A program made the position numbers and the translations under genes. A DNA stretch of 64,000 nucleotides from a virus: positions 1-64,000 of IMG/VR virus record IMGVR_UViG_3300050015_000276; one strand, 5' to 3'. Positions 2,940 to 50,466 of this stretch are shown here, piece by piece (positions within the stretch are counted from its first letter, which is position 1; the number at the start of each line of letters is the position of its first letter). Under the pieces are notes generated by a model, which was given only the letters and a program-made list of their open reading frames with translations, made no database searches and had not been told where the DNA came from.

Positions 2940-3884
2940 ATGATACTTGTCGATTATAATCAGGTTTGTATTTCCAATTTATTTCTCTGCTATCAACCCA
3001 CAATGAAAGTTTCTCCATATACGGTAAGCGTGACAATAGAATTGCCAGATATGAAGAATGAAACTTCTACTTTAAATTACCCTGGTATTCCGGGTCCTTC
3101 TCCTGAAATGAATGTCGATTTTCTCCGCCACATGGTGCTTAATAGCCTTCGATATTATCGTACTAAATTTGGAAATAAATATGGTCGATTAGTTATCTGT
3201 GCTGATAACAGACATTACTGGCGTAAGGATGTATTCGAGTATTATAAAGCTGGACGAAAGAAAAATCGTGATAAGTCTCCATTAGATTGGAACATGATTT
3301 TTGATACCTTGAATAAACTCCGAGAAGAAATTTCGGAATATTTACCATATCAAGTACTTAATGTTGATGGTTGTGAAGCTGATGATTTAATTGGAGTTCT
3401 TGCCAAGAAAAATCATACGGCTGAGAAGATCTTAGTATTATCAGGAGATAGAGATTTCATCCAGCTTCAGAAGTGGCCGAATATAGAACAGTATGCGGCC
3501 ATACAAAAACAATTTTTGAATACTGATAATCCTGTAGAATATCTCCGAGAGCATATTATGTTAGGTGATTCTGGAGATGGTATTCCGAATTTCAAATCTG
3601 CCGATGATATTTTTGTTTCTGGAGGACGTCAAACATCAATTCGGAAAAGTGATCTTGCTAGGTGGGTTAAAGAATCTAAACCAGAAAACTTTTGTGATAT
3701 TGGTATGCTCCGCGGATACCGAAGAAATCAAACATTGATCGATCTAGATTTTATTCCAAAAGAAATACAAAAGGCAATTGTAGATGCGTTTGATAAACCT
3801 TTTACTGAATCGCGGAAAAAGTTATTTGATTATTTTGTGCGATTTAAGTTATCCAATTTAATGGATCATATACAGGAATTCTGA
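2940..3884 (+). CDS. rnh: T4-like RNase H (5'-3' exonuclease/flap nuclease)
   Basis: Predicted to remove RNA primers during lagging-strand synthesis. FEN1/PIN-type nuclease motifs are visible in order: MILVDYNQVC, then CADNRHYWRK, GCEADDLIG, SGDRDFIQL and GDSGDGIPN. The acidic residues in these motifs make up the two-metal site in the family. The 314-aa length matches T4 RNase H (about 305 aa). It has its own promoter and overlaps the next gene by one base (TGATGG), so the two are coupled. Confidence 0.9.
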   Translation: MILVDYNQVCISNLFLCYQPTMKVSPYTVSVTIELPDMKNETSTLNYPGIPGPSPEMNVDFLRHMVLNSLRYYRTKFGNKYGRLVICADNRHYWRKDVFEYYKAGRKKNRDKSPLDWNMIFDTLNKLREEISEYLPYQVLNVDGCEADDLIGVLAKKNHTAEKILVLSGDRDFIQLQKWPNIEQYAAIQKQFLNTDNPVEYLREHIMLGDSGDGIPNFKSADDIFVSGGRQTSIRKSDLARWVKESKPENFCDIGMLRGYRRNQTLIDLDFIPKEIQKAIVDAFDKPFTESRKKLFDYFVRFKLSNLMDHIQEF

Positions 3885-5723: not shown

Positions 5724-5795
5724 CGGAGTGTAGCCTAGCGGCCAGGCACTTGTTTTGGGAACAAGTTCACGCAAGTTCGATTCTTGCCACTCCGA
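5724..5795 (+). tRNA. tRNA-Pro (anticodon UGG)
   Basis: A complete cloverleaf can be drawn. Acceptor CGGAGTG (5724-5730) pairs with CACTCCG (5788-5794), discriminator A at 5795. D arm GCCT/AGGC, anticodon arm CTTGT/ACAAG with loop TTTGGGA (anticodon TGG), T arm GCAAG/CTTGC with loop TTCGATT. CCA is not encoded. It lies 350 bp upstream of the tmRNA, in an RNA-rich segment. Confidence 0.95.
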
Positions 5796-5847
5796 CAATA
5801 TTTTAATAGGAGTCATATGAAGCTTCATTAAGATAAGGAGCATCAAA

Positions 5848-6042
5848 GTGGCACGAAAGAAAAGCGTAATTAGAGGTTGTGGCTGTTTTAGTTGTAGATG
5901 GGGAATGCATAATTCTTCCTGGGGAAAAGCCCAAGTTAAGAATGCGGTACAAAAAGTACGTCATCATACTAAAGCAGCATTGGCAATTGGAGATTATGAC
6001 AAGGCAACAGATTTTATGACTAGCACTGGTTATACGGACTAG
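5848..6042 (+). CDS. Small basic Cys-containing protein (64 aa)
   Basis: GTG start chosen because AAGGAG lies 8 nt upstream. The N-terminus has GCGCFSCRWG, a compact Cys cluster that might bind metal, followed by a basic helix (KVRHHTKAALAIGDYDKATDFM). Sits between tRNA-Pro and the tmRNA. Function unknown. Confidence 0.6.
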   Translation: MARKKSVIRGCGCFSCRWGMHNSSWGKAQVKNAVQKVRHHTKAALAIGDYDKATDFMTSTGYTD

Positions 6043-6144
6043 TCATTCCACTCGGTTTAATATTCGGTAACGGTTTTAATGTCCCATAGTCGTTTACTTG
6101 GTTTAATAAATGGTACAGGATTTATTTTAAGAAATTGACGGTAT

Positions 6145-6409
6145 TATTCGTGTATTACCCTATTTGGGTTGCGAACAAGAAGAGGCTGCGATGCCTCCAT
6201 CTCCACCATCTCCTCCATAATTAAAGTTTTATTATGTGGGGATGAACTAGAATCGATTGGCGTTAATCAGGATATGGGGACGAATACGTGAAGTGCTCAC
6301 GATAAACAGAACAAAACAACAAACGACGAAAGCAATTTCTCGTACTTGCAAATGGCCGCCTAAAGCGGTTCAAGCAGCGCGCCCGGAGGAGCGGGGACCA
6401 GAATCCTCC
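6145..6409 (+). ncRNA. ssrA: Circularly permuted transfer-messenger RNA (tmRNA)
   Basis: The tRNA-like 3' half lies upstream of the 5' half. Acceptor strand CATCTCC (6198-6204) plus A and an encoded CCA (6205-6208) pairs with GGGGATG at 6238-6244, and a 5-bp T-arm-like stem (GAGGC/GCCTC, 6182-6197) directly precedes it. GGGGATGA followed by AATCGATTGGCG matches the conserved tmRNA 5' end. Helix P2 forms between 6145-6165 and 6270-6286. A tag frame follows (6322-6363): N-D-E-S-N-F-S-Y-L-Q-M-A-A-stop, with the stop inside a GGCCGC/GCGGTT hairpin as in P5. A 29-nt spacer joins the halves. The T loop is unusual (6 nt, TGCGAT). Ends are approximate; the resume codon is probably ACA. Expected role: rescue of stalled ribosomes with SmpB. 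Confidence 0.85.
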
Positions 6410-6476
6410 ACTTTCACTTTCCAAAATAATTTTAAAATATCTCCACCTTAAACTCCTAGTTGTGCTATATATTAAT

Positions 6477-7361: not shown

Positions 7362-7610
7362 ATGAACAATACCAAAAGTGAAGTTTTCGAAACATTATTC
7401 ATAGATCACCCTTTATTCGATATTAGTGCATCCTCATTTGCATTAGAAATTGAAAAAGTAGTAAAGACGGAAAAGGTGGACTATTTGGCGGCAGTTTGCC
7501 AACTGTGTGAACGATATGAGATTGATTTCTCAGCCGTACCAAAACTTATTACTCCAACAATGCGAGATAAAATCGAAGTGGCGGCGACTGATAGAAAGTT
7601 TAGGATATAA
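7362..7610 (+). CDS. 33: gp33-like late-transcription coactivator
   Basis: The 82-aa helical protein has the pattern FALEIEKVVKTEKVDYLAAVCQLCERYEIDFSAVPKLITPTMRDKIEVAA. This matches what I know of gp33-type RNA-polymerase-binding proteins of marine T4-like phages. The family links host RNA polymerase to the sliding clamp and the gp55-type sigma at late promoters. The (A/C)TAAATA boxes ahead of structural genes in this window fit such a system. No gp55-type gene is visible here. Confidence 0.7.
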   Translation: MNNTKSEVFETLFIDHPLFDISASSFALEIEKVVKTEKVDYLAAVCQLCERYEIDFSAVPKLITPTMRDKIEVAATDRKFRI

Positions 7611-7613
7611 AAT

Positions 7614-7799
7614 ATGTTTGTACAATTTAAACCAGATTTAACTAATCCAAATGAACTGCTTGGTGATTCAGTAGTTAGGGCTTGTTGGTACGCCTATAAT
7701 GCTGGAAAAAATAATGAATGTCTCAAAAGTGTAGGTTTTAGTGGGTGCGAAGAATTTCAAAATTTTCGTGTCATTCTGGAGATTAATGAAGGACAATGA
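7614..7799 (+). CDS. Hypothetical protein (61 aa)
   Basis: Lies 3 bases after the gp33-like stop and overlaps the next gene by 4 bases (ATGA), so it is in the same operon. Contains two Cys (NNECLKSVGFSGCEEF). No recognised domain. Confidence 0.55.
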   Translation: MFVQFKPDLTNPNELLGDSVVRACWYAYNAGKNNECLKSVGFSGCEEFQNFRVILEINEGQ

Positions 7800-8419
7800 T
7801 TCCGTTCGAGGCATTTGAGCTTTACATTGCCATAAAACAACACTTCACCAAACCTTCCTACGATTTTTTCAAATATAACGGCAAAACAACCGCATCAGTT
7901 TCCAAATTTGAATCTCGTCCAGACAAATCTTTCTTCTACAAAATTTCCAAAAAATATTCCAGATCTAAACTAATAGATCTTTATGTTGCCAATTTTGTCG
8001 ATAGCCCAGAACTCTGGATAGGCGATCTATTAGACGATACGGCCGAAGCCATATACACCGAATGGCAAAAAAAGATTGAAAGTCTTTCATACCATTTTTC
8101 TGAACAGTGTGATGGATTTTTATCTTGGACAGAATCTAAAGGAATGAAATTCAATGAATTATTCCAAATACATGATGCCGATCACCCAGTCATTCTCAAG
8201 ATGGCACTCCAAAGGATCTTATCTCTTGAATCGTTTCTTATCCTCAATAGGATACTTAATTTTGGAAAGAACTTCAATAGAAAACTAGACGATATAGTTT
8301 GGAAAGACTTTTGGTTCCGTGCCTGCAAATATGATTCGTTTCTGATAAATATAGAGAAGGAGAAATACAAATCAATTCTCCGATCTAAAATAGAAACGGA
8401 ATACCCAAATGTTACATAG
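7796..8419 (+). CDS. 59: gp59-type replicative helicase loader
   Basis: The length (207 aa; T4 gp59 is 217 aa) and sequence pattern match: FELYIAIKQHFTKPSYDFFKYNGK near the start, RPDKSFFYKISKKYSRSKLIDLYVANFV, SPELWIGDLLDD, and VWKDFWFRACKYDSFL near the end. The family loads the gp41 helicase onto gp32-coated ssDNA at forks and recombination intermediates. It sits in one cluster with the gp33-like and gp32-like genes, the usual T4 neighbourhood. Confidence 0.85.
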   Translation: MIPFEAFELYIAIKQHFTKPSYDFFKYNGKTTASVSKFESRPDKSFFYKISKKYSRSKLIDLYVANFVDSPELWIGDLLDDTAEAIYTEWQKKIESLSYHFSEQCDGFLSWTESKGMKFNELFQIHDADHPVILKMALQRILSLESFLILNRILNFGKNFNRKLDDIVWKDFWFRACKYDSFLINIEKEKYKSILRSKIETEYPNVT

Positions 8420-8821: not shown

Positions 8822-8900
8822 AAATAAATTCAAGTAGTACCTACATTATGATTTGTTTGTGAACAAGACCAAAAATAAAATACAGGAAACAATACAAACA

Positions 8901-9881
8901 ATGTCCTTCTCTTCTTATAAAAAGTCACGCACAGATCTCACCAACCTAAACAAGAAAGTCGATGAGATTGCCGCAAGTTCAAATAAATATTCCAAAGATT
9001 CACGTTTCTGGAAACCTACTGTTGGTAAAGATGGTTGCGGATCGGCACGAATTAGATTCCTACCTGCCGCAGAAGGCGAAGACCTTCCTTGGGTTCAATA
9101 TCACGAACATAATTTTAATGTTGATGGTTCATATTTTGTTAATTTATGCCCAACCACATTAGGACGCGAATGTCCAGTATGTAAGGCAAATGGAGTATTA
9201 TGGAAGACTGAAATTGATGAAAATCAAAAAATTGTCCGAGATCGTAAGCGCAAGTTAGTTTATGTTTCTAATATCCTTGTTCTTAAGGATAAAGAAGCGG
9301 CCGAAAATGAAGGTAAGGTATTTCTATACCAATTTGGCCAAAAGATCTTCGAGAAGATTAAGATGGCATTAAAGCCAAAAGACGAAGAAGATCCCGCAGT
9401 TAACGTATTTGACTTTTGGGATGGCGCCGACTTCTCATTAGAAATCAAGAAAGTGGCCGGTTATCGGAATTATGATGATAGTAAATTCCGTGCACCTTCC
9501 GCATTACTTGGTGGTGACGATAAAGAACTTGAGAAGATCTTTAAGCAATTATATCCATTACAACCTTTTGTCGCCGAAACAAAGTTTAAGACTTACGAAG
9601 AGTTGGAGAAGAAGTTTAATGAAGTGGTTTCTGGAGTAAGAGGAAAGATTCAAAAGAAAGCTGATGAATTGTTTGCTGATGCTGCTCCAGTGGCTATTCC
9701 TGAAAAGAAAGTTGAACGGAAACCAAAAACAGAAGAGGAAGTAACGCCACCTTGGACCTCCTCAGAAAAGTCAACGCGTAAACCAAAAGTGACTAAATCA
9801 AAGCCAGCAGTTGTTGAGGAAGATATTCCTCTTGAAGATGATACTTTAAATTATTACGAACAATTGGCATCCGAAGATTAA
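8901..9881 (+). CDS. 32: gp32-type single-stranded DNA-binding protein
   Basis: Start at the ATG at 8901 (MSFSSYKKSRTDL), after AGGAAA. The N-terminus is the basic cooperativity region. The core has a zinc site built from HNFNVDGSYFVNLCPTTLGRECPVCKANG (His plus three Cys, as in T4 gp32). FDFWDGADFSLEIKKVAGYRNYDDSKF matches the family's OB-fold region. The C-terminal third is charged, ending in an acidic tail (EEDIPLEDDTLNYYEQLASED) that in the family contacts other replication proteins. 326 aa against 301 in T4. Confidence 0.92.
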   Translation: MSFSSYKKSRTDLTNLNKKVDEIAASSNKYSKDSRFWKPTVGKDGCGSARIRFLPAAEGEDLPWVQYHEHNFNVDGSYFVNLCPTTLGRECPVCKANGVLWKTEIDENQKIVRDRKRKLVYVSNILVLKDKEAAENEGKVFLYQFGQKIFEKIKMALKPKDEEDPAVNVFDFWDGADFSLEIKKVAGYRNYDDSKFRAPSALLGGDDKELEKIFKQLYPLQPFVAETKFKTYEELEKKFNEVVSGVRGKIQKKADELFADAAPVAIPEKKVERKPKTEEEVTPPWTSSEKSTRKPKVTKSKPAVVEEDIPLEDDTLNYYEQLASED

Positions 9882-37740: not shown

Positions 37741-37788
37741 GTTATCATAACACATATTCTTGCTTTCCTCTTCTTTGTGTGCTACCTT
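37741..37788 (+). promoter_or_regulatory. Palindrome GTTATCATAAC plus promoter
   Basis: Palindrome 37741-37751, 8-nt gap, TTGCTT 37760-37765, 17-nt spacer, TACCTT 37783-37788. First (leftmost) copy of the GTTATSATAAC motif. ATG 7 nt after the -10. Confidence 0.65.
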
Positions 37789-37795
37789 AGATGAT

Positions 37796-38728
37796 ATGAA
37801 ATTAGAACAAATTGGTTTCTATACTCTTTCCGATCGACGGGCAGCTAATGCTAGTGAATTTTCCAACCTCTCACGGTGTGAAATTCTTTTGACTGGAAGA
37901 TGCAATTTCCATTGTCCATATTGTCGGAGCGTTGGTGGTCCAGATAAACCTTTCGAAGAAGTGGCCGCTATTGTTAGACTTTGGGCTTCTCAAGGATTAT
38001 ATGCTATCCGTTTTAGTGGCGGAGAACCTTTGATGTATCCTCGTTTGAAGGAATTAGTAGAAATAGCAAAAATTGAAGGAATTAAGAAAATTGCCATTTC
38101 TACTAATGGTTCATTTCCTCTTAATAAATATTTGGATCTTATTGCTGCCGGAGTTAATGATTTTTCTATTTCTTTGGACGCTTGTTGCGCCGAAGATGGT
38201 GATTTTATGGCCGGCGGTATCAGAGGAGCATTTGAACGGGTTACAGCAAATATAAAGGAGTTGTCTAAAGTAATATACATAACTGTTGGAGTGGTTTTGA
38301 CTACAACCAACGCGGCAAATGTTAGTAAAATTATTGAATTTGCCTCTAATCTTGGAGTTCAAGATATTAGAGTTATTCCGGCGGCCCAAGCTGGCGATAA
38401 ATTAGGTGAAATTGTTGTTTCTGAAGAACTCCTCAATAAATATCCTATTTTGAAATACCGTATCCAGAATTTGCATGACGGAAAACCCGTCCGTGGTATT
38501 CGTGATGGTGATAGCCGCAATTGTGGACTAGTTTTGGATGATATGGCTGTTTGTGGAAATCACCATTATCCTTGTATCATCTATCTTAGAGAAGGTGGTT
38601 CTCCAATAGGAAGTATGAACGATTCAAATATTCGAAGTGTCCGTGCTGAGTGGTATAGAACCCACAATACACATTCTGATCCAATTTGCCGAAAAAAACT
38701 GTTTAGATGTGTGCGTGGATTACAATAA
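37796..38728 (+). CDS. Radical SAM protein
   Basis: CNFHCPYC (Cys36, 40, 43) is the CxxxCxxC [4Fe-4S] site. FSGGEPLMYP (about residue 75) is the SAM-binding GGE motif, and ISTNGS and SISLDA fit the barrel. Four further Cys in the C-terminal third (CGLVLDDMAVC, YPC, CRKKLFRC) could bind an auxiliary cluster, as in SPASM/MoaA-like enzymes. 310 aa. It would catalyse a radical-based modification; substrate unknown. Leaderless start. It stands between a structured RNA and a small gene, with no obvious peptide substrate gene other than the 28-aa ORF upstream. Confidence 0.85.
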   Translation: MKLEQIGFYTLSDRRAANASEFSNLSRCEILLTGRCNFHCPYCRSVGGPDKPFEEVAAIVRLWASQGLYAIRFSGGEPLMYPRLKELVEIAKIEGIKKIAISTNGSFPLNKYLDLIAAGVNDFSISLDACCAEDGDFMAGGIRGAFERVTANIKELSKVIYITVGVVLTTTNAANVSKIIEFASNLGVQDIRVIPAAQAGDKLGEIVVSEELLNKYPILKYRIQNLHDGKPVRGIRDGDSRNCGLVLDDMAVCGNHHYPCIIYLREGGSPIGSMNDSNIRSVRAEWYRTHNTHSDPICRKKLFRCVRGLQ

Positions 38729-43164: not shown

Positions 43165-43725
43165 ATGAATACTTTTCTAAGATTTCTAATTTCAATGGCA
43201 TTTGCACTTAGTTGCTTTGCCTCCACATTAACATTGATGAATGCTCCTACGGGCCAAACAGGACCTTATGATCTCCTGATAGATGGTACCAATGTCCAAG
43301 GTGTTTGTGTTACCTACAATATTGATATTCCTATTGGTTATACCTGGCAAGCCACCGAATACCAGGTGACTGATTTTGCAGATCCTGGAGTACAAGTCCA
43401 ATACTTCCAGGCTGAATGGCTAACACAGCAATTTGCTTCAAATCCAAATGACTATGCTGGAATCCATGATGCTATTTGGAATATTTTCGAACCCGGAACA
43501 TTCAGTGGTTTTAATGTTTCGGCATGGCAAACTTCTGCTGAACAAAATTACGGATCAGTTGATCCAAATTCCTTTAATATTTATGTGCCAAATCCAGTTA
43601 ATAGTTCACAAACTTTCCTCACTCAAAATTCTGGTGCTACTCCAGAACCGAGTTCTATTCTGCTAATTCCGGCCGGAATTGGTCTTATTGTACTCGGAAA
43701 ATTCAAACATAAGTCAGTAGTATAA
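43165..43725 (+). CDS. Secreted PEP-CTERM protein
   Basis: Signal peptide MNTFLRFLISMAFALSCFAS, a mature domain of ~135 aa, then the tripartite sorting signal: TPEPSS at 159-164, a hydrophobic helix (ILLIPAGIGLIVLG) and basic residues (KFKHK). In bacteria such proteins are processed by exosortase (EpsH/XrtA) and exported with extracellular polymer. The presence of this signal in a phage gene implies the host has that system. Role could be host surface modification or biofilm effects; inference. Leaderless cassette. Confidence 0.85.
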   Translation: MNTFLRFLISMAFALSCFASTLTLMNAPTGQTGPYDLLIDGTNVQGVCVTYNIDIPIGYTWQATEYQVTDFADPGVQVQYFQAEWLTQQFASNPNDYAGIHDAIWNIFEPGTFSGFNVSAWQTSAEQNYGSVDPNSFNIYVPNPVNSSQTFLTQNSGATPEPSSILLIPAGIGLIVLGKFKHKSVV

Positions 43726-49229: not shown

Positions 49230-50466
49230 ATGCAACCTACCAGTAGGGAAACGTTTATACAATACTGTAAAGCGAATTTAGGAGATGGAATTATACACAT
49301 CGAACTAACAGACGCCCAGGCTAATAATTGTGTGGATGACGCGCTTACGATGTGGAGAGAATACAGTTATGAGGGAACGCAGCGGACGTACCTTAAGCAC
49401 CAAGTGACGGCTCAAGATATGATTAACCACTGGATACCGTGTGACGATTCCATTATGTCAGTGGTAAGAATAATTCAATGCAACGAGGGAAATTTAAATA
49501 TTTTTGATGTCCGGTATCAACTCCGTTACTGTGTAGCGGCTTAAGGAAGTAATTTCTTAAGCAAACTCCGTTAATTGCTGGAAACTCCTTTCATAGAGGA
49601 CAATCAGCAGCCAAGCCAAGGAAACTCTTGGAAGGTTCAACGACTATGGCAATTGCCAGTAGGGTTCAAGTGGACTCGAAATGCGGAGCATCCAACAATC
49701 ATTGGATGGTGATATAGTCTGATCTCCTAGGTAACTAGGAGAGGTTAAATGGCAACGATTTAACCGCAACATAAATGTTACAAGACTTTTATAATTTCTC
49801 TAACGTTTCCATAAATGTTTGTGGCTTTTTCGAGTAATCGGAAAATGAAAACTCTGTTAATTGCTGGAAACTCCTTTCATAAAGGACAATCAGCAGCCAA
49901 GCCAAGAAAGTAATTCTTGGAAGGTTCAACGACTAGGATTTAATCCGTAGGGAATAGTATTCCCGAAATGCAGAGCATCCAGATTTCCTGGATGGTGATA
50001 TAGTCTGATCTCCTAGGTAACTAGGAGAGATTAAACGGTAACGGTTTAATCGTAACATAAATGGCAACATTACGTCATTACCATGGAGAAACTCCGGCTC
50101 ATTGATTGGCTCATGAACCCGGAACCCACAATATCTTTTGAGCGTCTTGCCAATCGCATCTATGTTAATGCGGATTGGGGATACAGAGTAAAGCAAGGAG
50201 ACTTCTTTGTATTCGAAGTATACCAATGGCTTGATGAACTTTCATATCCACGTATTTGGACAGATAGATGGTTAAAATCATATGCCACCTGTTTGATGCG
50301 GAGAAATTGGGGTTCTAATTTAAAGAAATTTAATGGTATCCAAACCCTTGGTGGTGTCCAATTAAACGGACAACAAATCTATGACGAAGCGATGGATGAA
50401 AAGAAAGATTTAGAAGATATCCTTTATCGTGATTATCAGATACCACCTAGATTGTTTATTGGCTAA
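49230..50466 (+). CDS. T4-like virion (neck/tail-type) protein interrupted by two group I introns
   Basis: Exons 49230-49526, 49778-49812 and 50064-50466 join in frame to 735 nt (244 aa). The junctions read RYQLR|LQDFYNFSNVSM|QHYVITMEKLR, restoring a continuous sequence of the kind I recall for a marine T4-like structural protein, ending PRLFIG. Unspliced, the first frame stops at 49544. C-terminal features: DWLMNPEPTISFERLANRIYVNADWG, SYATCLMRRNWGSNLKKFNGIQTLGGVQLNGQQIYDEA. It lies far from the other structural genes. RBS AAAGAGG. Confidence 0.75.
49527..49777 (+). ncRNA. Group I intron 1 (IA-type, 251 nt)
   Basis: The 5' site follows the U of CCGT (49523-49526), pairing with the guide GCGG (49536-49539), with the conserved U-G wobble. 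Core: P3 CTCCG (49566-49570) with CGGAG (49684-49688); P/Q elements AATTGCTGG and AATCAGCAGCCAAGCC; R GTTCAACGACTA (49635-49646); S ATATAGTC (about 49713). P7.1/P7.2-like hairpins indicate subgroup IA. Ends at G 49777. No ORF inside. Confidence 0.88.
49813..50063 (+). ncRNA. Group I intron 2 (IA-type, 251 nt)
   Basis: Same length and core as intron 1. The 5' site follows the U of CCAT (49809-49812), with guide GTGG (49821-49824). P3 is CTCTG (49852-49856) with CAGAG (49971-49975), a compensatory change against intron 1. The P9-region hairpin GATTAAAC/GTTTAATC also covaries. R at 49924-49935, S at about 49999. Ends at G 50063. Probably a duplicate of intron 1 that re-targeted to a site 286 nt downstream in the gene. 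Confidence 0.88.

Follow-up and report, generated by a model that had tools for sequence, protein, structure and literature searches.

A probable circularly permuted tmRNA gene upstream of gp33 in a T4-like phage

Introduction

The question raised by this locus is whether a short stretch of phage DNA, in which the acceptor 3' strand of a tmRNA comes before the strand with which it should pair, is a working tmRNA (ssrA) gene in circularly permuted order. The virus record is 179,687 bp long and the window analysed here is its opening 64 kb, in which the gene set around the tmRNA locus is that of a T4-like phage. The locus DNA matched none of 50,697 phage records, so the sequence is remote from any named phage and relatives (given below by their L numbers) were therefore sought by protein; the best protein matches of named phages to the locus stay below 60% identity. 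We conclude that this T4-like phage very probably has a functional tmRNA gene in circularly permuted order, of the alphaproteobacterial type, a reading that draws on structure, covariation, synteny and the open tag frame (Table 1).

Table 1. Coordinates of the tmRNA parts and neighbouring genes in the window
Feature	Position	Strand	Basis or remark
RNase H	2940-3884		T4-like neighbour of the tmRNA
tRNA-Pro (UGG)	5724-5796	+	ARAGORN and Rfam RF00005; conserved upstream neighbour, also in L087, L088, L089-L091
64-aa ORF between tRNA-Pro and tmRNA	5848-6042	+	tblastn matches, same place in L087, L088, L089
Acceptor piece (tmRNA 3' part)	6146-6208	+	RF04321 alignment; pairing and covariation
P2 5' strand, within acceptor piece	6146-6151	+	
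T arm GAGGC-TGCGAT-GCCTC	6182-6197	+	5-bp stem, 6-nt loop
Acceptor 3' strand CATCTCC; A73; encoded CCA	6198-6204; 6205; 6206-6208	+	
Transcribed intervening spacer, 29 nt	6209-6237	+	removal predicted
Coding piece (tmRNA 5' part)	6238-6412	+	3' end approximate; RF04321 (to 6363), RF01849 (to 6412); covariation
Acceptor 5' strand GGGGATG	6238-6244	+	7/7 pairs with 6198-6204
P2 3' strand, within coding piece	6280-6285	+	6 P2 pairs in window
Tag frame GAC...TAA, DESNFSYLQMAA*	6325-6363	+	start codon inferred; spacing from AAAAC motif
Stop codon TAA inside small hairpin	6361-6363	+	
3' helix GGAGGA/TCCTCC	6385-6409	+	part of probable pseudoknot; matching 8-10 bp helices in L103, L106, L108
Endolysin (phage lysozyme)	6462-7274	+	next gene 3' of tmRNA; PF00959, phrog_7
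gp33-like late-transcription coactivator	7362-7610	+	conserved downstream neighbour; PF16805, phrog_254; gp33 also after Melnitz tmRNA
gp59-like helicase loader	7796-8419	+	conserved neighbour; phrog_269; synteny
gp32-like single-stranded DNA-binding protein	8853-9881	+	conserved neighbour; PF08804, phrog_224; bait for relatives

Architecture of the tmRNA

A permuted order had been proposed in the first-pass annotation, and all of its parts are found in the DNA. The acceptor 3' strand with its CCA (6198-6208) lies 5' of its partner GGGGATG at 6238, and pairing of the sequence gives the T-arm hairpin, P2 and the hairpin that holds the stop codon. The tag frame is present, as is a G3-U70 pair, which is the alanine charging signal. 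The covariance-model search that the same annotation had suggested was run with permuted tmRNA models and came out clearly in favour, the Rfam model RF04321 (tmRNA_permuted) matching 6146-6363 over its full length with 78.2 bits against a cut-off of 47 (E = 2.7e-13 when the window is searched with the whole of Rfam, 1.8e-16 in the record). As a positive control the annotated tmRNA of phage Melnitz scores 113 bits with this model. A second model, RF01849 (alpha_tmRNA), matches 6098-6412 marginally, at 52.6 bits for a cut-off of 50.

ARAGORN reported the tRNA-Pro only and called no tmRNA in the window, and so a real phage tmRNA can escape a standard annotation program. A sigma-70 promoter search upstream of the tmRNA on the same strand gave no match. 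Minimum-energy folding of the tmRNA is unremarkable (z -1.35), but a weak folding signal is expected of an RNA that is pseudoknotted and in two pieces, and covariation was used instead. The spacer is conserved neither in length (23-142 nt in relatives) nor in sequence.

An uninterrupted tmRNA in standard order would instead start at 6238 and end near 6440, with TATCTCCACC as the acceptor strand pairing with GGGGATG. Seven pairs between TATCTCC and GGGGATG can indeed be formed when G-U is counted, yet no T arm precedes this candidate strand, its end reads CCT rather than CCA, and the strand is absent in L103. Moreover the only tmRNA models over cut-off in the window are the permuted ones, and the covariation of the upstream T arm and P2 described below fits the permuted order, leaving the uninterrupted gene with next to no chance of being correct.

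Two stretches resemble the acceptor 3' strand. At 6438-6452, about 240 bases downstream of it, ATATCTCCACC repeats most of that strand and could mispair with GGGGATG; the other, TCTCCTCCA, opens the spacer (6209-6217).

Covariation among relatives

Relatives were collected via gp32 or the endolysin and not via the tmRNA itself. A permuted tmRNA over cut-off is present in 6 of 16 relative records, all six from the gp32 search, and many of the remaining records are short fragments that may end before the tmRNA locus. The helices were compared in six diverged phages, namely the window, four relatives found through gp32, and Melnitz. Across acceptor stem, T stem and P2, 99.1% of cells are paired; shuffling lowers the figure to 71.4% and sliding the partners lowers it to 37-49%. 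The margin is large even though the alignment consists of hand-chosen helices and is thus biased towards structure. Changes on both sides occur at 12 of the 18 pairs, and none of 500 shuffles attains any of the five measures.

The acceptor stem (7/7) and the T stem (5/5) are fully paired in all six phages, each phage having a T stem sequence of its own. In P2 97.2% of cells are paired and five of the six pairs are altered on both sides. G3-U70 is invariant while acceptor positions 4-6 covary. The relatives thus retain the permuted order with compensatory changes, which bears out the interpretation first put forward from the single sequence. A wider view of viral loci came from a DNA search pattern built on a single acceptor type, which yielded 85 loci, 45 of them distinct.

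The tag peptide

The encoded tag is probably DESNFSYLQMAA, with GAC as the resume codon, because GAC lies 7 nt after the AAAAC motif, a spacing shared with Melnitz (GCA), L103 (GCC) and L106 (GAC), and because the tag called by ARAGORN in the relative L087/L108, DETFVLPMAA, starts at the matching Asp. Of the earlier tag, NDESNFSYLQMAA, the frame and the TAA stop hold, and its 'N' probably lies upstream of the resume codon, judging from the spacing. The window tag ends ...LQMAA-UAA, a hydrophobic residue followed by AA and the stop, and in all six compared phages the end is -MAA or -LAA, like ClpXP degrons. Within the clade of the window the ends are of the -MAA kind (YLQMAA, YLPMAA, YLAMAA, VLPMAA); pattern-set phage loci with a recognised tag mostly end in -LAA.

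The T loop and the question of decay

The window T loop, TGCGAT, has 6 nt as against the 7-nt TTCGANN-like loop, which is one base under its five comparators, and may weaken folding, with T54, C56 and A58 retained. It had been singled out as notable before, and short it is, but the idea that it is exceptional was dropped since 8 of the 45 other distinct phage loci likewise have 6 nt; six more have 8-9 nt.

Together with the missing GCA resume codon such a loop could be read as early decay of a copy that no longer functions. The RF04321 score of 78 bits, where all relatives except L108 reach 91-114, the loop one base short of the five comparators, the AAGA that stands where GGAC precedes the T arm and the silence of ARAGORN on this copy all point that way. 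However L108 scores equally (78.1) and is called by ARAGORN, 6-nt loops recur in the pattern set as just noted, the tag frame is open with AA at its end, and the window copy has standard pairing at each of the 18 scored pairs, its T stem sequence being shared with none of the comparators. A pseudogene therefore seems improbable, at perhaps a slim chance, and a functional permuted gene is the preferred reading. As to L108 itself, ACCC follows the acceptor strand (1552-1562) where ACCA is expected, and so its CCA end would need host enzymes.

Position of the locus across phages

In L087, L088 and L089-L091, with 66-73% gp32 identity, the order is RNase H, phrog_461, tRNA-Pro(TGG), 64-aa ORF, tmRNA, gp33, gp59 and gp32, whereas L094, a more distant relative, has its tmRNA about 5 kb upstream of gp33. 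The 64-aa ORF of the window (5848-6042) is 47% identical to the L087 copy, with 38-50% identity across L087, L088 and L089, and family searches with it gave no match. Among the 45 distinct viral permuted-tmRNA loci, of which just 26 have 2.5 kb of downstream sequence, 20 have gp33 or gp59 on the same strand no more than 4 kb downstream, and none has either gene upstream or on the opposite strand.

The place beside gp33 is thus a repeated location of permuted tmRNAs in T4-like phages. We infer common descent of the tmRNA-gp33 locus, though it may instead have arisen by several insertions at one preferred site. A stronger proposal is that of an old tmRNA lineage proper to T4-like phages, with a fixed place that has the RNase H/tRNA region on one side and gp33-gp59 on the other, and inherited with the phage rather than recaptured from hosts, whose tag in this clade has by drift acquired an Asp start and an -MAA end and may give tagged proteins a fate other than that of the host tag; this we hold to be unlikely. 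The repeated position makes it possible to ask whether ribosome rescue is inherited as a core infection function, and likewise whether the tags of phages differ from host tags.

Elsewhere in the window two tandem group I introns (49517-49741 and 49803-50027; 103.5 and 95.9 bits), about 61 bases apart, appear to split one gene with a very short middle exon between them, the flanking frame (from 49230 on the one side, to 50466 on the other) looking like a single structural protein. An ORF at 43165-43725 has a signal-like N-terminus and a C-terminal PEP-CTERM sorting domain (TIGR02595, 17.6 bits, cut-off 16), pointing to a host that has an exosortase system; a search of genome contigs found no relative of this ORF. 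A radical SAM protein (37760-38728; PF04055, MoaA-like below family cut-offs) is encoded just past the phage tail genes.

Proposed function during infection

What follows on spacer processing, alanine charging, SmpB use and proteolysis is carried over from the tmRNA family. A single precursor transcript would run from the acceptor piece through the spacer to the coding piece, host tRNA-processing enzymes would cut out the 29-nt spacer, and the two resulting RNAs would stay joined through the acceptor stem and P2. The acceptor piece would then be charged by host AlaRS via G3-U70, and host SmpB would bring the tmRNA to those ribosomes that, during infection, have stalled because their mRNA is broken or cleaved. 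There the ribosome would move to the tag frame, append (A)DESNFSYLQMAA and terminate at UAA, so that it is released and the protein marked for ClpXP-type proteolysis. No smpB was found across the whole record, and so host SmpB, AlaRS and ClpXP are presumably used.

The breakdown of host mRNA by T4-like phages would leave ribosomes stranded, and an extra tmRNA is therefore plausibly of benefit; our hypothesis is that the phage gains by keeping ribosomes free during this degradation. Alternatively the RNA may chiefly compete with the host tmRNA, titrating SmpB or AlaRS instead of tagging, for which a precedent has been suggested in the tRNA-like-only element of mycobacteriophage DS6A (PMC4131195, PMC11915505) and with which a record devoid of smpB would agree. 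A pure competitor would need no tag, and so the open tag frame and the C-terminus conserved in all relatives speak against it; we rate it a shade below even the pseudogene, and tagging by a functional tmRNA is preferred.

Comparison with known systems

The tmRNAs of Bxz1, Wildcat and phage G are standard one-piece genes, whereas the window copy is permuted. All are phage-borne; two mycobacteriophages, Bxz1 and Wildcat, and Bacillus phage G are listed as tmRNA carriers in PMC4131195. With the alphaproteobacterial permuted ssrA (RF01849; the Caulobacter two-piece tmRNA) the window copy shares the gene order, the acceptor and coding pieces, P2 and a 3' pseudoknot-like end with CAGAA, although its tag is without the usual (A)AND start and -LAA end.

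The closest counterpart is in an isolate, Methylophilales phage Melnitz (gene 86, MZ577097.1 45984-46436), whose two-piece tmRNA was described in 2022 in a paper that also counts 53 phage tmRNAs to which ARAGORN gives the two-piece form; marine or aquatic samples are the source of 50 of these (PMC9004378). The permuted order pointed out for the window is correct, and the claim to novelty is weaker than first thought. Like the window copy, the Melnitz tmRNA is from a T4-like phage, permuted, has G3-U70, matches an alphaproteobacterial-type model and lies upstream of gp33, gp59 and gp32, in its case 0.27 kb upstream of gp33. In the window an endolysin gene stands between tmRNA and gp33, unlike in Melnitz. 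The spacer is 142 nt in Melnitz and 29 nt in the window, the T loop 7 nt and 6 nt, and the tag ANDNYVPVDYALAA as against DESNFSYLQMAA; a glutamine riboswitch lies downstream in Melnitz, whereas the window has no riboswitch match in Rfam. Since Melnitz and other phage two-piece tmRNAs have been described (PMC9004378), the permuted phage tmRNA is a known kind, and the window copy is a further well-supported example of it.
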